Source: Coriobacteriia bacterium | GTDB taxonomy: Bacteria; Actinomycetota; Coriobacteriia; Anaerosomatales; JAENZW01 | Direction: 5' to 3' | Assembly: GCA_029858605.1 (NCBI GenBank) | Contig: JAOUET010000003.1 | Span: forward strand, 1-33,586 | DNA: 33,586 nucleotides | Part shown: positions 2,212 to 31,807 of the stretch, piece after piece | Layout of the letters: each line of letters opens with the position of its first letter | Numbering within the stretch: position 1 is the first letter of the stretch | The notes under the pieces: model-generated | What the model saw: only the letters and a program-made list of their open reading frames with translations | What the model was told of the DNA's origin: nothing | The model's database searches: none | Translations under genes and position numbers: made by a program

Positions 2212-3090
2212 TTACGTCGCCTCGTCGATCCGCGTCTCGATTCGGCATCGCTGCCCGTGCTGATACGACAGCGTCAGCCATGCGGCTCCTCGCGGCTTTG
2301 GAGGCATGCCGCGCTCGATCGCCCAGCCTTCGCCGTCGAGGAACTCGCCCTTGTAGCCGGCGATGCGTACGTGCGTCTGCCGGTCCTCGCGGACCTTGCC
2401 TTGATCGGTGACACGCGCTCGAGCGATCGGCATCGTCCAGGCGTCATGCGTATGACCGCTCACGACGAGGTCGGCGTCGGGCAGGTAGAGACCCATGCGC
2501 GCGGTCTGGATGACGCCGCGAGTCACCGGGCCGCCGCCGCCGTAGCCATGGTGGTAGTAGATGCGGAACGTCGACGACTTCTTCGGGTCTCGCTCGTTGT
2601 GGAACCGGACGAGAATCCAGCCTGCGTACGTGCCTCGATGCAGGAGCGGAGCGCGGCCGGCGGTCTTGAGCGACCGGACGAGCCGATCGGTGAGGTCGAT
2701 CTCGTGCCGCTTGCCGACGCTCGTCTCGTGGTTGCCCGGCGACATCATCACCCAGCGATCGGCGAACGGCGCGTACCGCTCGGCCGCGACATCGACGAGC
2801 CGATCGAGGTAGTGGCCTTCCCAATACTCGGGCCGCAGGTCGCTTCGGTCAGGTCCGCGTCGCGGATCGAACTTGCCCTGCATGGCGTCGAACAGGTCGC
2901 CGAAGTCGAGGATGTACGCGTCGCTCTCGACGGCCTCGCGGAGATGCCGTTCCTCCATCGAGCGGTCGGCGTGCGTGCTGTCGTGATGCGCATCCGACCG
3001 CATCAGGAACCGCAGCTCGTCGCCTGGTGCGACCTTGGCGCGAACGATCAGGACGGAGGCATCGGCACGCTCGACGGTGACGCTTGGCAC
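2212..3090 (-). CDS. Calcineurin-like metallophosphoesterase
   Basis: Motifs SDAHHD, FGDLFD, SPGNHE, YYHHG and SGHTHD; probable GTG start at 3090. Confidence 0.85.
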   Translation of the reverse strand: MPSVTVERADASVLIVRAKVAPGDELRFLMRSDAHHDSTHADRSMEERHLREAVESDAYILDFGDLFDAMQGKFDPRRGPDRSDLRPEYWEGHYLDRLVDVAAERYAPFADRWVMMSPGNHETSVGKRHEIDLTDRLVRSLKTAGRAPLLHRGTYAGWILVRFHNERDPKKSSTFRIYYHHGYGGGGPVTRGVIQTARMGLYLPDADLVVSGHTHDAWTMPIARARVTDQGKVREDRQTHVRIAGYKGEFLDGEGWAIERGMPPKPRGAAWLTLSYQHGQRCRIETRIDEAT

Positions 3091-3500
3091 GCGGTCGCTC
3101 CCTGACCCTCGGAGCCGATCGTCCATAGATCGACTTCGACCCTCGGTCGATCTCGATCGTATCCGATGACGGCCGGCCAGTGGACGAACGTGCGGTCGTC
3201 GACCTTGAGCGCCTCGGCGATGCCGTCGAACGCGTGCTTCATCGAGGCGAGCAGGTTGTCGGCGTCGCGTCGTCGGCGGTCACGGAAGAACCATCGGCAT
3301 CGGACGCCGAAGTTCTGGTCAGTCGTAAGCTGCTGGTTTGGCATTGTCCCGAGCGATACGCCGGGCATTTCGAGAACCTCAACGGTCTCGAAGAACGCGA
3401 CAGCGTGCTGACGCTTTGCGGCCTTCGAGCGAACCGCCCAGTGCGAACGGGCGTTCGGCGAGAGGCAGCGGTCCGGGAGCGGAAGCGAGACCGTCACCAT
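3048..3500 (-). CDS. RusA-like Holliday junction resolvase
   Basis: MVTVSLPLPDRCLSPNARSHWAVRSKAAK... RRRRDADNLLASMKHAFDGIAEALKVDDRTFVHW. Confidence 0.8.
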   Translation of the reverse strand: MVTVSLPLPDRCLSPNARSHWAVRSKAAKRQHAVAFFETVEVLEMPGVSLGTMPNQQLTTDQNFGVRCRWFFRDRRRRDADNLLASMKHAFDGIAEALKVDDRTFVHWPAVIGYDRDRPRVEVDLWTIGSEGQGATACQASPSSVPMPPS

Positions 3501-3519
3501 GTGAAGAGGCTCGCGTCCT
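3494..3519. repeat. 26-bp direct repeat, copy A, at the 3' end of the methyltransferase gene
   Basis: tcaccatgtgaagaggctcgcgtcct, identical to 4645..4670. Confidence 0.95.
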
Positions 3520-4651
3520 TTGCGAAGGCGCTGATCCTTGCTCGTGCTATCTCAACGTACTCGGCTTCGCGTTCAATGCCGATGAACCGAAAGCCTTCAA
3601 CGACTGCCGCCTTTCCGGTCGAGCCGCTGCCGCAGAACGGATCGAGGATCAGTCCTCCCGGCGGCGTGACGAGGCGGCAGAGGTAGCGCATCAACTCGGT
3701 AGGCTTGACGGTCGGATGCGTGTTACGAGCCATCTTCGTAAAGCGGTCGCTTACGGGATCGCCGTCCGCGTCATTTCCGTTATTCATCTTGACTCGAACG
3801 ACAGGGCGCGCCTCTAACCCTTCATCCCGATCTGCCTTGCTCGCCTTCGCGCAGTAGAAGAAGCGAGCGGCGGAACCAGTGAGCGACTCCACCTCATCGC
3901 TGCCGTCGTGGATAAGGTTTGCAGGCCAGCGGCCTTGAAGGGCAGAATCGTCCATGCTGCCACTTGTCGGCGAGCCGATGCACCAACCTTTCGAGGGGTC
4001 TGCCTTTCGCCTGGTGTCGTCTGCGTCGCGGTCGTAGCCAACTCTGCACCCATCCACGTTGATCCCGCCCGTGCCGTGCTTGACCACGTTCTCCGCGACA
4101 GTGCCGATGAGCGACTTGCGAGCGACAATGATCGGCTCCCACGCTGGCTTCAACGCAGTTCCCCAGCCGGACCACTGACGAGCCGCTTCAGTGGCGGGAA
4201 CGGTAAGTAGTCCGCTGCTGCGGTCTTGGAACCACTCGGGATCGGCAATGGCTCCGCTGTTCGGCCTGTAGTTGCGGTTTGGCCCAATCACTTCTCGCTC
4301 TGCTCCCGCCGCCTTGTCTATCGCCTTGCTAACATCGTGCGACTTCGGGAAGCCGCTGCCGTAGACCCACATAACGCAATCGCGGATCTCCCAGCCTGAA
4401 TCCTCGATGGCACACGCGAGCCGGTGATAGGTCCGCGTGCCGCCGAACGCGAGCAAGTGCGATCCCGGCTTCGCGACTCGCAAAGCCTCCATCCAGAACT
4501 CGACGCCGGGAACGCCGTGATCCCAGCCCTTGCCCATGAAAGAGAGACCGTACGGCGGATCGGTGACGATCGCGTCCACGCTCTCGGCATCCATCGAGGC
4601 CATGACCTCGCGACAGTCTCCAAGCCTGACCTCTGCCGCTCGCTTCACCAT
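3494..4651 (-). CDS. DNA methyltransferase (N6-adenine / N4-cytosine type)
   Basis: Catalytic motif TDPPYGLSF near the N-terminus and SAM-binding motif ILDPFCGSGSTGKAA near the C-terminus. Confidence 0.92.
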   Translation of the reverse strand: MVKRAAEVRLGDCREVMASMDAESVDAIVTDPPYGLSFMGKGWDHGVPGVEFWMEALRVAKPGSHLLAFGGTRTYHRLACAIEDSGWEIRDCVMWVYGSGFPKSHDVSKAIDKAAGAEREVIGPNRNYRPNSGAIADPEWFQDRSSGLLTVPATEAARQWSGWGTALKPAWEPIIVARKSLIGTVAENVVKHGTGGINVDGCRVGYDRDADDTRRKADPSKGWCIGSPTSGSMDDSALQGRWPANLIHDGSDEVESLTGSAARFFYCAKASKADRDEGLEARPVVRVKMNNGNDADGDPVSDRFTKMARNTHPTVKPTELMRYLCRLVTPPGGLILDPFCGSGSTGKAAVVEGFRFIGIEREAEYVEIARARISAFAKDASLFTW

Positions 4652-4670
4652 GTGAAGAGGCTCGCGTCCT
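4645..4670. repeat. 26-bp direct repeat, copy B, spanning the methyltransferase start codon
   Basis: tcaccatgtgaagaggctcgcgtcct, identical to 3494..3519, offset 1151 bp. Confidence 0.95.
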
Positions 4671-4983
4671 CGGAGTCGTCGGCGTCAGGCTCGACCGGCG
4701 GTCGCTGGTGCTTCCGCTCCTCGCTCACGACGGCATCGCAGGCGCAAGCGACTATCGCCTCGACGGTATTCGGGCCGTCGCCGCCGACCTCGGCTTCGGC
4801 TCCTGCATGACAGACGGTGGCGGTCCCGATCCGCAGGATGCGAACCTCGCCGTGCCGGACGAGGATCGCGTCGAGCACCTGGAGCGCTACGGCGAGCTCG
4901 CCGCCGGTCTCGGGCCTCAGATCGAGCATCCGTGCCGCGGCTGCGGCTCGGCGGTCCTGAGGCTCGTCCGGCTGTCTCAACAT
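4645..4983 (-). CDS. Hypothetical protein, C-terminus DASLFTW
   Basis: MLRQPDEPQDRRAAAAARMLDLRPETGGELAVALQVLDAILVRHGEVRILRIGTATVCHAG...EDASLFTW; the track ORF 4645..5514 is over-extended. Confidence 0.6.
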   Translation of the reverse strand: MLRQPDEPQDRRAAAAARMLDLRPETGGELAVALQVLDAILVRHGEVRILRIGTATVCHAGAEAEVGGDGPNTVEAIVACACDAVVSEERKHQRPPVEPDADDSEDASLFTW

Positions 4984-5228
4984 GGCGGTTCGGTTCGGCC
5001 GGTCACGTCGCGTAACGGTAGCACTTTCGCGAGTTTGCAGAAGAACTGCGACGCGTCGAGGACCGGCTCGACCGCCCGGAAGATCCACTCGGAGCCGTCC
5101 GTCAGGAAGATCGAGGCGGAGCCGCTCTCGGCGGTCTCGACGAGGACGACCTCGTCCCAGTCGTACGCGAGAGCGCCCCTGGCATCGCCGGCGAGCCAGC
5201 ACGGGAACTCCTCGCGGTCGCGGCTCAT
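4977..5228 (-). CDS. Hypothetical protein
   Basis: MSRDREEFPCWLAGDARGALAYDWDEVVLVETAESGSASIFLTDGSEWIFRAVEPVLDASQFFCKLAKVLPLRDVTGRTEPPC; overlaps the neighbouring gene start. Confidence 0.55.
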   Translation of the reverse strand: MSRDREEFPCWLAGDARGALAYDWDEVVLVETAESGSASIFLTDGSEWIFRAVEPVLDASQFFCKLAKVLPLRDVTGRTEPPC

Positions 5229-6238: not shown

Positions 6239-6870
6239 GGCTGGATCCCTTGAAGGTTGCGCCTGAGTTCTGAAACGTTCTTCAGGTGCTTCGGCTGAAT
6301 CCTCCATTCGGGCCGGTTTGATTCCGGCTCGAATCGTTCGCAGTCTGATCCATGGCGCCAGCCGACGATCCAGATATCGCGATATTGCACGAGGAGTTCA
6401 TCGTTCGATGACTGCTCGCTCCCGTACTCCATCGGCTTTACCGGAGTTGTCAGGACGTATGGACGGCCAAGGATCTTCCGGTCCCGATCCTTCATGGCGA
6501 TGCGAAGCCGAGGATCGGCCCTGCTGCAAAACTTGACCTCGATCGGTCCGACATCGGCCTCATCGAGCGGATCGCCAAACAGGACAGACCGCGGAGCTCC
6601 GAACCAGACCGCTACCGCAGCCTCGCCGAGCTTGCCTTTCATTCTGTCCCAGTAGTTCTCGCTTCGTCCGTCGAGCGGTTGTGCGCCGCACATGACGCGA
6701 TCGAGATGCTCGGCAGCCGCTCGAACGGCGCTGAGCCATTGATCGTCGAGCGTGATCTTGCAGTGACCGGACGGCCATGACTGCATCGATTCGGCTCGCG
6801 GCCCGAGCGAAACCGAAGCCTCTGGCTTGTCTTGATTGTTCTTTACGAACATCCATCCACTCAGGTTCAT
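6235..6870 (-). CDS. Hypothetical protein, possible PD-(D/E)XK-like nuclease
   Basis: GKLGEAAVAVWFGAP...GDPLDEADVGPIEVKFCSRADPRLRIAMKDRDRKILGRPYVLTT...RDIWIVGW. Confidence 0.55.
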   Translation of the reverse strand: MNLSGWMFVKNNQDKPEASVSLGPRAESMQSWPSGHCKITLDDQWLSAVRAAAEHLDRVMCGAQPLDGRSENYWDRMKGKLGEAAVAVWFGAPRSVLFGDPLDEADVGPIEVKFCSRADPRLRIAMKDRDRKILGRPYVLTTPVKPMEYGSEQSSNDELLVQYRDIWIVGWRHGSDCERFEPESNRPEWRIQPKHLKNVSELRRNLQGIQP

Positions 6871-6882
6871 GCGTCGACTCCG

Positions 6883-7275
6883 TTACAGGCTGTTGAAGAG
6901 ATCCCGAAACTCGATCCGCCCCAGAGCGATCAGATCCTCGATGTCGTCGCTGTTCAGATGCGAGAGGCTCGTGGAGACCGCGTAGTAATCGCCACGATGC
7001 TGATCGGTTCCCGCCTCAACGACGCCGATCGCTTCGAGTTCTCTAAGCGCCCTGCGTGCGACCTGCATCGTGCAGCCTGCATGTCCGGCAAACCAAGACA
7101 GCGTTGCGGAGTCGCATGAGTACGCGTAGAAGTGCAGTCGATCGTCAATGACCTGGCAGGCCACGGACCTCGCGCGCAACCGATCCCAAAGCACCTGGGC
7201 AGCAAAACTGACATTGCGCCACCGCTGGTTTTGCGAGATCTGCTCAAGGATGTGTGCCAGTCTTTCAGGTTCCAT
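6883..7275 (-). CDS. Hypothetical winged-helix-like / replication-associated protein
   Basis: MEPERLAHILEQISQNQRWRNVSFAAQVLWDRLRARS...TMQVARRALRELEAIGVVEAGTDQHRGDYYAVS. Confidence 0.5.
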   Translation of the reverse strand: MEPERLAHILEQISQNQRWRNVSFAAQVLWDRLRARSVACQVIDDRLHFYAYSCDSATLSWFAGHAGCTMQVARRALRELEAIGVVEAGTDQHRGDYYAVSTSLSHLNSDDIEDLIALGRIEFRDLFNSL

Positions 7276-7576: not shown

Positions 7577-8100
7577 GCAGCACCTCGCGCGAGGATCTCG
7601 GCCCGTACCTCGGCCGGCTGCATCGCCGCCCAGATCATGCCCAGCCGGAACGCGCCCCAGGCACGCGGATCGTCCGGCAGGTTCTCGACGACGACTGCGA
7701 CCATCGACCGCGACAGGTACTCGCGAGCGGCCGGCAGCCGCTCGAGGTTGCCGAGAACCCAGGCGAGCATCCGCTCGCGGTCCTGCTCGGCCTCGATCCG
7801 CATCCGCTCGAACGCTGCGGCCCGTTCGGCCGCTCGCTCGTCCGGCGTCTTCGCGGCACGCTCACCGGCCGAGGAGTTGCCGCGCTTGATCTCGTGGAAC
7901 TCGTTCCAGAACCACGACATCTCCGGCACGTGCGACGCACGCCGGAGCTTCACGCGGTTGATCGCCTCGGCGAGCCATTCCTGGTTGAGGTTGCGGAACG
8001 TGTCGCGGAAGAGGTCGATCCAGTCGACCGAGAGTCCGGCGCTCGGCCAGAGTCCGAGGATGCGCTCGATGTTGCGACCGATCGTGAGCGGTTCAGACAT
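7573..8100 (-). CDS. Hypothetical protein (possible replication accessory)
   Basis: MSEPLTIGRNIERILGLWPSAGLSVDWIDLFRDTFRNLNQEWLAEAINRVKLRRASHVPEMSWFWNEFHEIKRG...; preceded by a near-match of the GGAGATGACCGATG cassette. Confidence 0.55.
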   Translation of the reverse strand: MSEPLTIGRNIERILGLWPSAGLSVDWIDLFRDTFRNLNQEWLAEAINRVKLRRASHVPEMSWFWNEFHEIKRGNSSAGERAAKTPDERAAERAAAFERMRIEAEQDRERMLAWVLGNLERLPAAREYLSRSMVAVVVENLPDDPRAWGAFRLGMIWAAMQPAEVRAEILARGAA

Positions 8101-8356
8101 CGGTCACCTCCTCGGGCAGCATGTCGCGGAGTTCGGTGATCTGCTCGGCGCGTTCTCCGGCGATGCGCTCGAGCTCCGCGACGCGTTGACGGAGCGCGAG
8201 GATCGTCTCGACCGCCTCGCAGGCGATCGGCAGGTTCAGGCTCACGTCCTGCCGGAGCAGCCGGCAGCAGATGTCGGCGCGATCGAGGCGGCTCAACCGG
8301 AACTCGCGCTGGAGCATGTCGATCCGGCGTCGCGTGTCGTTCCAGGTATCAGGCAT
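8093..8356 (-). CDS. Small hypothetical protein, paralogous to the neighbouring 8349..8669 product
   Basis: Shares LDRADICCRLL...EAVETILALRQRVAELE with the neighbour's ANDITHRLL...EAVDTILALRDQIVAYR. Confidence 0.6.
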   Translation of the reverse strand: MPDTWNDTRRRIDMLQREFRLSRLDRADICCRLLRQDVSLNLPIACEAVETILALRQRVAELERIAGERAEQITELRDMLPEEVTDV

Positions 8357-8669
8357 TCGCGACCGCCTTTCGCATCGGTCCGAGGATCATCTCGAGCCGG
8401 ATCTTGATCTCGTCGACCTCCTGCCGTGCGGTCTCGATCGCGGCCTGGAGCCGCGCGTTCTCGGCGTCGCTGGCCTGGACGATCGTGCGATAGGCGACGA
8501 TCTGATCGCGAAGCGCGAGGATCGTGTCGACCGCCTCCATGCAGTCGAGGTCGACCGCTCGCGTGTAGTGATCGACGCGATCGAGCAGTCGGTGCGTGAT
8601 GTCATTCGCCGGCACGCCGAGAGCGGCGAGTTCGGCCCGTAGTTGCGTTGCGCGTTCATCCGGTGTCAT
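8349..8669 (-). CDS. Small hypothetical protein (paralogue of 8093..8356)
   Basis: MTPDERATQLRAELAALGVPANDITHRLLDRVDHYTRAVDLDCMEAVDTILALRDQIVAYRTIV...; perfect GGAGATGACCGATG start. Confidence 0.65.
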   Translation of the reverse strand: MTPDERATQLRAELAALGVPANDITHRLLDRVDHYTRAVDLDCMEAVDTILALRDQIVAYRTIVQASDAENARLQAAIETARQEVDEIKIRLEMILGPMRKAVANA

Positions 8670-9544
8670 CGGTCATCTCCTGTCATTCCAGGTCGGTACA
8701 TCCGAGCGCCGCTCGCCGTTCGAGCGACGCCATCGGCGTCGATCCAGCATCCGAGCGGCAGTGTGCGCTCGGCGTTTCGTTTCGTCAACTCGGGACCGCT
8801 CGAGCGGCGGTCCGCGTAGGCCTGACCTCGTGCCATCCATCGCCGCAGTCCGGCCCGTACGTTTCGCCAGCGGCCGGACGGCGACTCGGCCGCGAGCCAT
8901 GCGTGCGCCCTGGCGAGCTCGGCGTCGACATCGACCGCCGGATACGCCGCCGCCCAGGCTCGCCGGTCGGCGTCGGTGACGCCTGCGAATCCGGTCTCGG
9001 GATGCCACTCGATCGGAGAGGTTCGCGAGGCTTTCGGCTCGTTGGCGGTCCCGGTCGATGGCGTTTCGACATCGACAGGGACAAGACTGGAACCGCTAGG
9101 TTCCAGTCCTTGGTTTTCTGTCTTGGTCTTACTCTTACTCTTACTCTTGGCATTGCAGTCGGAATGCGGTCGCATTGCATCCGCATCCGCCTGCTCGTCT
9201 GGATGCCATCGGGCGGAGGCTGCCCGGCGAGCCGACGCCGACCGCCGCTCGCGGATCTCCGCCAGCGTCTCGCCCGGCCACGAGAACCGGATCGTGCCGG
9301 ACCGGCGATTCGCTGTAGCCCAGCCAGAGGCGATTAGAGCGTCCGTCGTGCCTGGAGGTACGCCGGTAGCCTCGTCGACCGCGGACGCGTCTAAAGCCGT
9401 CTGCGGCCCGTAGGATTGAACCCAGCACCAGATCGCCAGCACGCGACCGGCTCCCTCGAACCGTCCTACTTGCAGAGTCCGGCAGAATGCCACAAAGCGA
9501 GGCTTCCGGAACAGGTCGACATCCACGGGAATCCATCGTTCCAT
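8666..9544 (-). CDS. Phage replication-initiator / replisome-organiser-like protein
   Basis: MERWIPVDVDLFRKPRFVAFCRTL... plus an AKSKSKSKTKTEN linker and a C-terminal helical domain. Confidence 0.55.
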   Translation of the reverse strand: MERWIPVDVDLFRKPRFVAFCRTLQVGRFEGAGRVLAIWCWVQSYGPQTALDASAVDEATGVPPGTTDALIASGWATANRRSGTIRFSWPGETLAEIRERRSASARRAASARWHPDEQADADAMRPHSDCNAKSKSKSKTKTENQGLEPSGSSLVPVDVETPSTGTANEPKASRTSPIEWHPETGFAGVTDADRRAWAAAYPAVDVDAELARAHAWLAAESPSGRWRNVRAGLRRWMARGQAYADRRSSGPELTKRNAERTLPLGCWIDADGVARTASGARMYRPGMTGDDR

Positions 9545-9569
9545 CGGTCATCTCCGATCATCCGGTCGA

Positions 9570-10134: not shown

Positions 10135-10391
10135 CGGTTCACCTCGTTTCGGTTTGACCAGGCCGTGCCTGGGTTCTCGTCAATGTGCGTGTATTGCGTC
10201 TCGCGCTTCGGCTCGTTGATGAACGCCTCGACCTGCGACGGGCGGAACCGCCAGACGCGAGGACCGATCGCGACCGGAGAGAGCCGGCCCTGCTTGATCC
10301 AGCGGTAGACGGTGTCGCGGCTGATGCCGAACCTCGCGGCGAACTGCTCGGGCGAGATCGACGGCGAGTCATCAGAAGGGGATCTCGACAT
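10131..10391 (-). CDS. HTH_17 / excisionase-like DNA-binding protein
   Basis: ISPEQFAARFGISRDTVYRWIKQGRLSPVAIGPRVWRFRPSQVEAFI. Confidence 0.85.
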   Translation of the reverse strand: MSRSPSDDSPSISPEQFAARFGISRDTVYRWIKQGRLSPVAIGPRVWRFRPSQVEAFINEPKRETQYTHIDENPGTAWSNRNEVNR

Positions 10392-11154
10392 CGTCGTCCT
10401 CCTTCGCGACCGGCTTCGCATGCGACTTCGCGCCGCGGATGTCGAGCAACTCGATCCCGCGGCCGCTCTCCTTCACCAGCACGTCGGCCTCAACGCCGAC
10501 GAGCTCGAGCGCCCGTCCGCCGTGCGTCGCGGAGAACGTCGAGAATCGCTCGCCGCCGGTCGTGAACACCGAGTAGAGACGCCACGGGCCTTTCGCCGAC
10601 TGGCCGTCCTTCGTCTCGACTTTCTCGACGGTCACGCGTTCCCAGCCGTCGTCGAGCGTGACCGGCTCGACCGGCTTCGCCGCCGGCTTCGCCTGCGGCT
10701 TCGGAGCCGTCGCCGCGTGAGCCTGCGGCATCGAGACCTGCCGCTGCGGCTTCGGCTCGTTCGTCGCGTTCCCGTCGTCGTCCTCGTCGCCGACCACGCC
10801 GAGAGCGGCCGACAGGCTGTACCGCCTGGCGTACGTCATCGCCGAGCCTGTCGCCTGAGGCTTCGCGAGGTCGACGCGGACTGGCACGGGCGCGAGCCGG
10901 ATCGTCTCGCCGCTTGCGTCGCGGATGACGGTCCAGCACATCAGGTTCCCGTCCGGCATCGGCTCGAAGTCGCTCGCGAGCGCGAGGCCGAACCGGGCGA
11001 GGTGCGGTCGGCACGTTTCGAGGAACGAGCCGAGGCTCGCGTACTTGAACCGGCCGAACGCGGTGTTGACCTTGTCGAGCGCCGGCGACGGCATCTCGGC
11101 AAGTGCCGCGGCGAACGCCGCCGCGATCGTCTCTGTCTTCTTCTCAGGCTTCAT
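10372..11154 (-). CDS. erf: Erf-family single-strand annealing recombinase with C-terminal SSB-like tail
   Basis: AFGRFKYASLGSFLETCRPHLARFGLALASDFEPM...ATGSAMTYARRYSLSAALGVVGDEDDDGN (ERF motifs); C-terminus ends EDDDVEIPF. Confidence 0.85.
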   Translation of the reverse strand: MKPEKKTETIAAAFAAALAEMPSPALDKVNTAFGRFKYASLGSFLETCRPHLARFGLALASDFEPMPDGNLMCWTVIRDASGETIRLAPVPVRVDLAKPQATGSAMTYARRYSLSAALGVVGDEDDDGNATNEPKPQRQVSMPQAHAATAPKPQAKPAAKPVEPVTLDDGWERVTVEKVETKDGQSAKGPWRLYSVFTTGGERFSTFSATHGGRALELVGVEADVLVKESGRGIELLDIRGAKSHAKPVAKEDDDVEIPF

Positions 11155-11341
11155 CGACGACCTCCTCGATCTTGCCGTCCCGGATCAGGTTGGCGAGCTC
11201 GTCGAGCTCCGCGACCCTCCGCTCGATGTTGAGGGCGATGTCGTATCGCTTCTCCTCGGCGGCCATCTTGCGGACTTGGTTCAACTCGAACGCGGCGCAC
11301 TCAAGCGCAAAGCAGAACATTCCGACTCGTTCAGGTGTCAT
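11144..11341 (-). CDS. Small hypothetical protein
   Basis: 65 aa MTPERVGMFCFALECAAFELNQ...; perfect GGAGATGACCGATG start. Confidence 0.6.
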   Translation of the reverse strand: MTPERVGMFCFALECAAFELNQVRKMAAEEKRYDIALNIERRVAELDELANLIRDGKIEEVVDEA

Positions 11342-11469
11342 CGGTCATCTCCATGGCCGGTCTTGATGGTTCCGTCCCGCTTGCCGGCCTCGATCACGAA
11401 CGGGAGGAAGACGCCGGGGATCACGATGATCCCGGCGAGGATGCAGCACGCAAGGTCAAGCCACGACAT
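11338..11469 (-). CDS. 43-aa single-TM small protein
   Basis: MSWLDLACCILAGIIVIPGVFLPFVIEAGKRDGTIKTGHGDDR; stop overlaps the start of 11144..11341. Below the ORF-track length cutoff. Confidence 0.55.
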   Translation of the reverse strand: MSWLDLACCILAGIIVIPGVFLPFVIEAGKRDGTIKTGHGDDR

Positions 11470-11656
11470 CGACGGTCCCTCCGATGCGAGCGGTCCGCTT
11501 GGCCATCGCGAGATCGTTTCGCAGGCTGTCGAGGTCGACCCTGAACTGATCGAGCTGCTCGGCGAGCCGATCGCGTCCGGCCACGCGTGCCTGTTCGGCC
11601 TGCTGCCCGAGGTTGTAGATCGCGTAGTGAAGCGCGGCAGATTGTCGGTTTGTCAT
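11456..11656 (-). CDS. Small hypothetical protein
   Basis: 66 aa MTNRQSAALHYAIYNLGQQAEQARVAGRD...; perfect GGAGATGACCGATG start. Confidence 0.6.
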   Translation of the reverse strand: MTNRQSAALHYAIYNLGQQAEQARVAGRDRLAEQLDQFRVDLDSLRNDLAMAKRTARIGGTVDVVA

Positions 11657-11737
11657 CGGTCATCTCCTACGGTGCGAGCCTGCGACGTTCGCAGGCGAAG
11701 CGGCCCGGTCGCGTTTCCGCGGCCGAGCCGTGAGCGG

Positions 11738-11977
11738 TCAGCCGTACTTCAGCGACCAGCCGAGCTCCTTGAAGAGCGGCCGAGCATCGTCCGAGATGAC
11801 GAGCACGTCGTTCCCGCGGCTCCGGCGAATCGACGCAAGCCCGTGCTTGACGAGGATGCGAGCCTGCATCAGGACCGCGCCCGAGATCATGTCAACTTGG
11901 TTGACCTCGTTGCGAGTGTCGATGTCGCGCATCGACTTGGCCACGGCGTGAATCGCGTTCTTGAGTTCGCTGTCCAT
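11738..11977 (-). CDS. Small hypothetical protein, first gene of the early operon
   Basis: 79 aa MDSELKNAIHAVAKSMRDIDTRNEVNQ...; perfect GGAGATGACCGATG start; the candidate promoter lies just upstream. Confidence 0.65.
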   Translation of the reverse strand: MDSELKNAIHAVAKSMRDIDTRNEVNQVDMISGAVLMQARILVKHGLASIRRSRGNDVLVISDDARPLFKELGWSLKYG

Positions 11978-12037
11978 CGGTCATCTCCTGCTTCGCCGCG
12001 AACCCCGCGGCGGTCAGCTCATCAGGCCGACAGGTGG

Positions 12038-29477: not shown

Positions 29478-29828
29478 CTAGTCGCGCACTCCGATTCGGA
29501 CCGGTGCGAGTTCTATCCGCTCGGTCGCCTCGCCGCCCTCGAGCCGCTCGATCTTGTCCAGCGTCGCGAGCGCGTTGATGTTGTCGCGGTCGAGCGCCGC
29601 GAGCAGTTCGATCGCTCGCAGCTTCTCGCGGTCGGTCTTGCCCGTGAGCGCGATCCGCTTCGCGATCAGCGGTGCGGCCGATCGGATGTCGTCCGGGATC
29701 GGCCAGCGGTTGCGTACCGCACGTATGAGCATCTGGAGCGTCTGCCGGTCGTGACCGGCGTCGCGCTCGATCTGCCGTGCGAGCGGCACGATCGCGGACG
29801 CGTCGACGGTTGGCTCGGTGTCGCTCAT
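29478..29828 (-). CDS. Putative terminase small subunit
   Basis: 116 aa immediately upstream of terL; helical. Assigned by position only. Confidence 0.45.
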   Translation of the reverse strand: MSDTEPTVDASAIVPLARQIERDAGHDRQTLQMLIRAVRNRWPIPDDIRSAAPLIAKRIALTGKTDREKLRAIELLAALDRDNINALATLDKIERLEGGEATERIELAPVRIGVRD

Positions 29829-30607
29829 TGAGTGTCAAGCGCCGGGATCGGAGTTGAACCGTCCCTTCCGGACTGGATGCCCGGCGTGCCGCCCTCAGCA
29901 CTTCCGGCGCGCTTGGCTCCGCGATACATGCTTGCGCCTATATCGCGAATCTTGGCGAATGGTATCTCCGGAACCGATAGCGCGCGACGCGCGTCGCGGT
30001 CTATGAAGAAAATGTAACGGAGTTGAAATCCTGGCAATGGCTTTGCGTCGGCCGCTTTCATCAATGCCTCTACCGAAGCGGAAGGCATCTTCAATCTTGC
30101 TCGCAAGATTCTTTGTTGCGGAGTTGGCCTTGCCGTCTTATATGTCATCTTGTGCGCAATCGTTCCATCTCCGAACTTGAATAGTTGGCTGTTCTTTTTT
30201 ATGGCCGTTAGCACAAAGCCTGACGCTCGATAGATCGCTCCGTCTCCGCATTGTGTCGCGTCAGCAAACGAGATTACCCACCGGAGTTGCGGATACGTCG
30301 CCTTCAGCCATCGCATCGCAAAGCCGATTGCGCGACTCTCGCTGTTCCGTGGAAGCCAATCCGCGAACGCCATGCGATTCAACTCGATGAACTCATGCCA
30401 TCGCGTGCCGCGTACGAGACCCTGTATCTTCCGCTTGTCCAAGGACGGGCCGAACTGCATCGCTCCTCCGCATCGTCCGTTCATGAATACGCCGAGATGG
30501 ACCTGCGAGTTCTGGACGATCTTTCCGGAGTAGTGCAGGTCTTGAATGATGCGGTTTCCGTCCGCCGCGGAAATCGGTTTGACGATGATGGTCTTAGCGT
30601 CACCCAT
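29825..30607 (-). CDS. Mom-like DNA base modification protein (GNAT-like fold)
   Basis: HYSGKIVQNSQVHLGVFMNGRCGGAMQFGPSLDKRK...HEFIELNRMAFADWLPRNSESRAIGFAMRWLKATYPQLRWVISFADATQCGDGAIYRASGF, the Mom-family pattern. Confidence 0.72.
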   Translation of the reverse strand: MGDAKTIIVKPISAADGNRIIQDLHYSGKIVQNSQVHLGVFMNGRCGGAMQFGPSLDKRKIQGLVRGTRWHEFIELNRMAFADWLPRNSESRAIGFAMRWLKATYPQLRWVISFADATQCGDGAIYRASGFVLTAIKKNSQLFKFGDGTIAHKMTYKTARPTPQQRILRARLKMPSASVEALMKAADAKPLPGFQLRYIFFIDRDARRALSVPEIPFAKIRDIGASMYRGAKRAGSAEGGTPGIQSGRDGSTPIPALDTQ

Positions 30608-31211
30608 TGAGATAGGCCGCACATATGAACGTCAAGGCGTTGGCGTTGCCGTTCTCGTTGAGGTCTCCGGTATCGCCTCCTGACTGCTTTGCCTTGCGAA
30701 TCGCGGCGTCCACTGTTTCGGCTTGCTCGTCATGCAGCACGAACGTAACTTGCCGGAACGGTTCTCGATCATCGCTCGGCAGTTGCGGCGGCTCTACTGC
30801 GTCGATGTCGTACGATCCGGACAGGTCGTCGATCATCTGCCGCAACGCTTCGCTGTCCGTCTCGACCGTCGCAACCAGAGACGCGAGCGCGTCGGCATCG
30901 ACCGTCGCCATCGCCGCCAGCGGATCGAGCGTCGCGAGCAACTTGTCGGCCTCGGCCTCGTCAACATCGAGAACCAGGACCGGCACGGCCGTATCGCCGA
31001 CAGTCTCGGCGCGTAGGTGTCCGTCGATCAGTTCGAGCGTACCGTCCTCAAGTTCGCGAGCGACGAGCGCCTCGGCGAAGCCGATCTCGGCGAGCGTGCC
31101 GCGGAGCGCGTCGGCCTGCTCCTTCGGATGCGTACGCCAGTTCTTCGGGTTCGGTCGCAGGCTAGAAGCCGGTACGCGACGCAGTTCCTTGATGCGGTCT
31201 CGGATGTTCAC
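30600..31211 (-). CDS. ParB/Srx N-terminal domain protein (GTG start)
   Basis: VNIRDRIKELRRVPASSLRPNPKNWRTHPKEQADALRGTLAEIGFAEALVARELEDGTLELIDGHLRAETVGDTAVPVLVLD. Confidence 0.85.
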   Translation of the reverse strand: MNIRDRIKELRRVPASSLRPNPKNWRTHPKEQADALRGTLAEIGFAEALVARELEDGTLELIDGHLRAETVGDTAVPVLVLDVDEAEADKLLATLDPLAAMATVDADALASLVATVETDSEALRQMIDDLSGSYDIDAVEPPQLPSDDREPFRQVTFVLHDEQAETVDAAIRKAKQSGGDTGDLNENGNANALTFICAAYLNG

Positions 31212-31807
31212 TCGGTGACCTCCAGCAGCTCGAAGAACCGCGTATGCAGTTCCTCGACATCGAAGACCTGCGGATCGACCCACCAGTCATCATGAGCGAC
31301 CTCGGCGAACAACTCGTAGCCGTTGGCCTCCATAAAGGCACGCATACGCTCCTGCCGAGCCGGACCGCCTTCGCGGTACGAGTCGTGCTCAAGCGCCACG
31401 ATGCCGAACCGGATCGCGTCCCACGGCAGGATACGCATCGCGTACTCGGTCAGCGTCGGAGGCTCCAGGTCGAGCGACAGGAAGTCGCAGCGGCCGCTCG
31501 GGAACACGGTCGAGACCAGCGTCCTCCAGTCGACGAGCAGAGCGTCAGGCAGCACGAAGCCGGCGCGTCGTTCGCGACGGAGCGCCTCGTGGTGCTCGAT
31601 GTCGCAAAGGACGCCGGTCCAGTTCAGGCCGCGTTCAAGCGCGAGCGTGTTCGAGAGTCGGATCGGCTCGCCGGCTCCGATGTCGAGGAACGTCCCGTGC
31701 TGCTTCCGGTTGTACGCCTCGATCACGAACCGATCCGCGCCGAGTTGACCGCGTAGCAGTTCGGGATCGATGCCGGAACACGGCAGATCGATAAAGGTTC
31801 TTCCCAT
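31208..31807 (-). CDS. FkbM-family methyltransferase
   Basis: MGRTFIDLPCSGIDPELLRGQLGADRFVIEAYNRKQHGTFLDIGAGEPIRLSNTLALERGLNWTGVLCDIE...DFLSLDLE...IRFGIVALEHD. Confidence 0.8.
   Translation of the reverse strand: MGRTFIDLPCSGIDPELLRGQLGADRFVIEAYNRKQHGTFLDIGAGEPIRLSNTLALERGLNWTGVLCDIEHHEALRRERRAGFVLPDALLVDWRTLVSTVFPSGRCDFLSLDLEPPTLTEYAMRILPWDAIRFGIVALEHDSYREGGPARQERMRAFMEANGYELFAEVAHDDWWVDPQVFDVEELHTRFFELLEVTE

Follow-up and report, generated by a model that had tools for sequence, protein, structure and literature searches.

The window, that is, the whole 33,586-nt stretch of DNA that was analysed, is a phage contig (IMG/VR 3300022208_000017) carrying portal, terminase and HK97-type capsid genes. 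Its ends are repeated over 139 nt with one mismatch, and therefore the phage genome is probably complete. Near the contig end, at 65-559, a 165-nt unit is present in three tandem copies (81% and 70% identity to the first). The early operon, on the minus strand, has the order 112-aa gene, DNA methyltransferase gene, rusA, phosphoesterase gene. Its features are given below together with the gene for a candidate recombinase; identities refer to orthologues in locus L085 of a sister phage (IMG/VR 3300044729_001702, 31,700 nt; loci L085 and L122+L123).

2212..3126, minus strand: calcineurin-like phosphoesterase gene (DNA repair exonuclease-like; PF00149, PHROG 7339), next in the operon; 94% identical in L085
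3048..3500, minus strand: gene for a RusA-like Holliday-junction resolvase (PHROG 34, 2.9e-15), downstream of the insertion; orthologue 82% identical
3494..3519, minus strand: 26-bp repeat, downstream copy (exact match); methyltransferase C-terminal tail and stop, plus the rusA start ATGGTGA
3494..4651, minus strand: predicted DNA methyltransferase gene, 385 aa, N6_N4_Mtase (PF01555; Pfam 6e-29; PHROG 67, 5.7e-73)
3520..4644, minus strand: inserted unique DNA, 1,125 bp, wholly methyltransferase coding sequence, delimited by BLAST block borders against the sister phage
4645..4670, minus strand: 26-bp repeat, upstream copy (exact match); the 112-aa gene's own 3' end (DASLFTW*) and the methyltransferase start ATGGTGA; its syntenic counterpart is the one copy of the sister phage (L085:5026-5051)
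4645..4983, minus strand: gene for a 112-aa protein of unknown function, on the upstream side of the insertion and source of the duplicated tail; orthologue 95% identical, ending DASLFVW*
10372..11154, minus strand: gene for an Erf-family single-strand annealing protein (PF04404, 1.9e-21; PHROG 2324, 1.4e-32), candidate recombinase for the insertion

Exact matching and ORF analysis confirmed what the sequence-only reading had claimed for this locus: the 26-bp sequence TCACCATGTGAAGAGGCTCGCGTCCT occurs in two identical copies, at 3494-3519 and 4645-4670, in direct orientation and at a spacing of 1151 bp, and these copies bracket the methyltransferase gene, each containing the junction DASLFTW*/ATGGTGA. 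No further copy was found in the window even when 3 mismatches were allowed, and 100 shuffles of the sequence gave 0 matches. Among the 2.9 million contigs of IMG/VR, the 26-mer was present in one, the window itself. On the minus strand, the 112-aa ORF (4983..4645) and the 385-aa methyltransferase ORF (4651..3494) share the C-terminus DASLFTW* in the same frame, and both stop codons sit within ATGGTGA, which is the start of the following gene (the methyltransferase gene at 4651 and rusA at 3500). The 26-bp copies provide the first codons (ATGGTGA), the last residues and the stop of the methyltransferase gene, and both of its neighbours retain a stop/start overlap.

The best PDB match of the methyltransferase was CcrM (6pbd, 4e-20). 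Its motifs TDPPYGL, near residue 30, and DPFCGSGSTG, near residue 340, place DPPY before the FxGxG-type SAM-binding motif, which is the beta-class order, so that the protein is predicted to be an N6/N4 DNA methyltransferase. No adjoining restriction enzyme was recognised by family search, and the methyltransferase is predicted to be of the orphan type. Environmental phages hold many homologues with 52-70% identity. These could be aligned from about residue 5-8 to about residue 367-384, and the ends were unrelated. DASLFTW was not found as the tail of any of these homologues, whose tails vary. Since homology starts only downstream of the repeat-derived codons and the ends are unrelated, the first codons and the tail of the methyltransferase were apparently derived from the recipient. 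The case considered earlier in which DASLFTW would be a conserved functional tail of both families independently does not hold for the complete heptapeptide; part of it may be donor-like, considering that LF was found in the last six residues of 23 of 58 distinct methyltransferases (homologues L002-L080), compared with 1% elsewhere in the same proteins. Others terminate in QKELALA or QMELALA. Beta-clamp-binding motifs include QxxLF and QLxLxL. The C-termini of the LF and QKELALA types resemble such motifs and could tether the enzyme to the clamp.

The codon usage of the methyltransferase gene was the most deviant of the 34 genes tested (z -6.15; GC content 61.8%). The next most deviant group included the 211-aa and 132-aa genes, which belong to a second insertion specific to the window. 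The codon usage of the replication-type gene rep292, which is common to the window and the sister phage, was nearly as atypical as that of the methyltransferase gene. The methyltransferase tree did not pinpoint the donor.

The sister phage was reached from searches with both the phosphoesterase and the 169-aa gene and was the sole close relative found. The two genomes are collinear throughout, with matching blocks of about 70-88% DNA identity. The sequence-only reading had predicted an empty site in which one junction copy joins the 112-aa gene to rusA, and exactly this structure was found in L085, where the orthologue of the 112-aa gene directly overlaps rusA at ATGGTGA. The single junction copy, at 5026-5051, matches the 26-mer of the window at 22 of 26 positions (4 differences). 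The BLAST blocks stop at 3519 in the window and resume at 4645, and their overlap in the sister phage, 5026-5051, is exactly 26 bp; the net difference in length across the junction is 1,151 bp. A close relative of the methyltransferase was not found anywhere in the sister record, in which the only match (31% over 69 aa) belongs to a different gene, a ParB-methyltransferase fusion (L122:10697-11860). The case considered earlier in which relatives always carry the methyltransferase without a repeat does not hold, because one close relative lacks the gene. Searches with the 112-aa protein, rusA, the 169-aa gene, the phosphoesterase and a degenerate junction pattern revealed no empty-site relative beyond L085, and none was found among phage isolates. 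A donor phage with matching ends was not found either.

Taken together, these results favour, with a probability of about 0.82, the recent insertion of a methyltransferase ORF from another phage at the point where the stop of the 112-aa gene overlaps the start of rusA, by staggered joins at short homologies. An assembly artefact, in which two strains were joined into a chimera, was considered because the contig comes from a metagenome assembly. This is very improbable: the methyltransferase ORF is intact, its start and stop are supplied exactly by the junctions, and 26 bp is below the length of the k-mers on which assemblers normally join contigs.

The same arrangement of genes and repeats could also have arisen in the opposite direction, with the repeat-flanked methyltransferase gene as the older state and its loss from the sister phage by recombination between the copies. 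Deletion between perfect repeats would yield exactly the structure of the sister phage. Moreover, in the distant phage locus L046, a methyltransferase of the same family lies one gene upstream of rusA-phosphoesterase, so that an older association of the methyltransferase with this operon, followed by loss in the sister phage, is conceivable. However, the copies in the window are still identical, whereas the junction of the sister phage differs at 4 of 26 positions. If the duplication had predated the split of the two phages, the chance of zero differences over 26 positions would be 0.013-0.065, given a local divergence of 10-15%. The duplication of the junction is therefore probably younger than the split, as judged from the sequences of the copies. 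The foreign codon usage of the methyltransferase gene also speaks against loss, as does the tree, in which the L046 methyltransferase forms a long branch within a group of unresolved branching and does not cluster with that of the window. Since only one empty-site relative was present in the searched collections, the polarity rests on the identity of the repeats and on codon usage; gain in the window phage is favoured over loss, which is unlikely, but is not proven.

Formally, a sequence that is single in the empty site and doubled around the insert is also the signature of a target-site duplication, which would result from a staggered cut by a transposase, an integrase or a homing nuclease. 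This origin is considerably less probable than loss. The 1,125-bp insert encodes the methyltransferase and neither a recombinase nor a nuclease, the repeat forms a stop/start junction compatible with the ORFs, and no second insertion of the element was seen in the binned genome. Among the longest 25 of 51 inverted-repeat pairs, none paired the insert ends. With neither an encoded enzyme nor terminal inverted repeats among these pairs, a transposable element or a homing nuclease was also rejected as a known system for comparison. The earlier claim of an insertion without a transposase agrees with the family search, in which the only ORF of the insert that was recognised was the PF01555 methyltransferase. 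As the inserted DNA consists of coding sequence throughout, it brought in neither regulatory DNA nor a gene for a transposase or an integrase.

The identity of the ends could in principle be convergent, if the same functional tail and the same stop/start were needed for translational coupling. The over-representation of LF near the C-terminus in the methyltransferase family is in line with this, as is the reuse of the sequence GGAGATGACCGATG by the phage at several gene starts. It was nevertheless the least probable of the explanations considered, because the 26 identical nucleotides include free synonymous positions, DASLFTW occurs in no homologue, and none of 2652 cross-locus junction pairs shared at least 15 bp. 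Convergence over the full 26 bp is refuted; it could still account for similarities of 9-15 bp elsewhere. As to GGAGATGACCGATG itself, which contains a Shine-Dalgarno-like GGAG and ATG, it was found on the minus strand at six gene starts in the window (8098-8111, 8667-8680, 9542-9555, 11339-11352, 11654-11667 and 11975-11988), five of them exact and one with a single mismatch, in a search that allowed up to 2 mismatches and for which about 0.4 matches were expected by chance. In the sister phage, it was present at four exact sites.

For the favoured reading, an insertion from a foreign phage, the following course of events may be proposed, as reconstructed solely from its end products. The start region of the donor methyltransferase gene would have joined one recipient molecule at ATGGTG(A), a rusA-type start, and the 3' end of the donor gene would have joined a second recipient molecule at AGGAC, in the 3' end of the upstream gene. 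The recipient sequence between these two staggered crossovers would then have become the 26-bp repeat. Some LF-ending methyltransferase tails have a preceding KD, for example PKDTLF, which is coded by AAGGACACGCTGTTC in L007; a donor tail of this type would give short homology with the recipient sequence GAGGACGCGAGCCTSTTY. The joins may have been made by short-homology (homeologous) recombination, plausibly via the phage Erf protein during multicopy infection. It was shown that Rad52-like recombinases, including Erf, efficiently recombine diverged sequences (PMC3945230). Selection would keep only those joins that preserve the coupled reading frames, and the methyltransferase gene may have been retained because the insertion left operon translation in step and an orphan methyltransferase would aid resistance to restriction. 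Reverse recombination between the 26-bp copies would precisely restore the empty state.

The window differs from the sister phage by another clean insertion, at 6239-7272. It comprises the 211-aa and 132-aa genes, is low in GC and entered at an ATG overlap; it shares only 3 nt, which indicates that insertions need not be flanked by long repeats. An ExK-like stretch in the 211-aa protein, PIEVKFC, suggests a PD-(D/E)XK nuclease, with no supporting database match. A modification slot lies upstream of the terminase gene at 29825-31283 and contains, in the window, a Mom gene (PF25680, 2e-52; 29825-30607) next to an ORF with weak similarity to ParB_N. In the sister phage, the same slot is occupied by the ParB-like N6/N4 methyltransferase fusion mentioned above, the ParB part of which was read from the sequence. 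This turnover of DNA-modification genes between the sister phages would fit selection by host restriction.

The recurrence of such repeats at other methyltransferase loci was also studied. At least 15 bp were common to the 5' and 3' junctions in 4 of 52 distinct methyltransferase loci (26 bp in the window, 18 in L005, 15 in L006 and 15 in L046). Such sharing was found in 0 of the 2652 cross-locus pairs that served as one control and in 0 of about 1,360 random same-locus pairs that served as the other. The anatomy of the window locus, with a stop/start overlap and an identical tail in the upstream gene, recurs in L005 and L046. The repeat is confined to the two methyltransferase ends in L005 and L006, and weak extra matches are present in L046. 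When about 1.04 Mb of loci were scanned irrespective of gene type, 9 ORFs bracketed by repeats of at least 15 bp were detected versus 0.5 expected. Adjacent methyltransferases share stretches of 110 and 81 bp in L048, and the repeat in L101 is 22 bp long; these matches were discounted as tandem methyltransferase paralogues, the L101 pair being D12-type. Those in L109 and L057, which include a GGAGG of the Shine-Dalgarno type, may have arisen by convergence. A 95-aa gene of the sister phage with no evident counterpart in the window (L122:3127-3411) is bracketed by a decayed repeat, TCAAGGGAGACGGCAAATGAACGAAGC / TCGAGGAGTATGGCAAGTGAACGACGC, which matches at 20 of 27 positions and is the best-matching adjacent junction pair in that phage. 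The loci with short repeats could partly reflect Shine-Dalgarno and overlap constraints. Tentatively, phage methyltransferase loci carry end repeats more often than expected. A more speculative and rather unlikely generalisation is that stop/start overlaps are reusable docking sites at which beta-class methyltransferase genes repeatedly enter phage operons, with one join at the start codon and the other at the 3' end of the upstream gene, each entry duplicating the junction.

The window and the sister phage form a clean and recent before/after pair in which a phage operon gains one gene and the translation of its neighbours is left undisturbed. A newcomer can evidently take its start, C-terminal tail and stop from the duplicated boundary itself, and the case bears on the debate over illegitimate versus short-homology recombination in phage mosaicism.

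Several known systems may be compared with this locus. The sequence-only reading had described the gene as a moron. Like a moron, the methyltransferase gene is an extra gene with foreign codon usage located between genes that adjoin in the relative, and to this extent the description stands; unlike a moron, the insert is wholly coding, has no promoter or terminator of its own and rides on the translation of the operon. The enzyme is an ordinary member of the PHROG 67 phage methyltransferases (N6_N4_Mtase, CcrM-like C-terminal motifs), and it differs from its relatives in that its last 7 residues were taken from the recipient junction. The short conserved boundary sequences of lambdoid phages (discussed in PMC3029335) resemble the 26-mer as short gene-boundary sequences usable as homology for module exchange, whereas the 26-mer is, in IMG/VR, limited to this phage and, in diverged form, its sister.

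The closest parallels were described in mycobacteriophages. In Island3, the last 60 bp of gene 68 (18 C-terminal residues) duplicate the end of gene 67, and Brujita has a single copy (Pope et al. 2011, PMC3029335, Fig. 5C). As in the window, an extra gene and the gene preceding it have a common 3' end, and the relative has a single copy. The single copy of Brujita is, however, a recombinant of the two, which leaves the polarity open, whereas the copies in the window are identical; in addition, the repeat of the window spans the stop and the next start codon, and the inserted gene is a methyltransferase gene. In LRRHood, a 1.35-kb insert with genes 43-46 lies between 29-bp direct repeats, one at a gene's end and the other ahead of the following gene; Cali has only one copy, and acquisition was favoured by the authors (Pope et al. 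2011, PMC3029335, Fig. 7). This too is a repeat-flanked insert with a single copy in relatives, but it contains four genes rather than one, and its repeat was not described as supplying both the stop and the start of an inserted gene. The hallmarks of these two cases were all found at the present locus, namely an insert absent from L085, a repeat present twice versus once, and a shared 3' end. The kind of event is therefore known from mycobacteriophages and is no new system; what the present locus adds is a clearer example, with a signature that can be counted.
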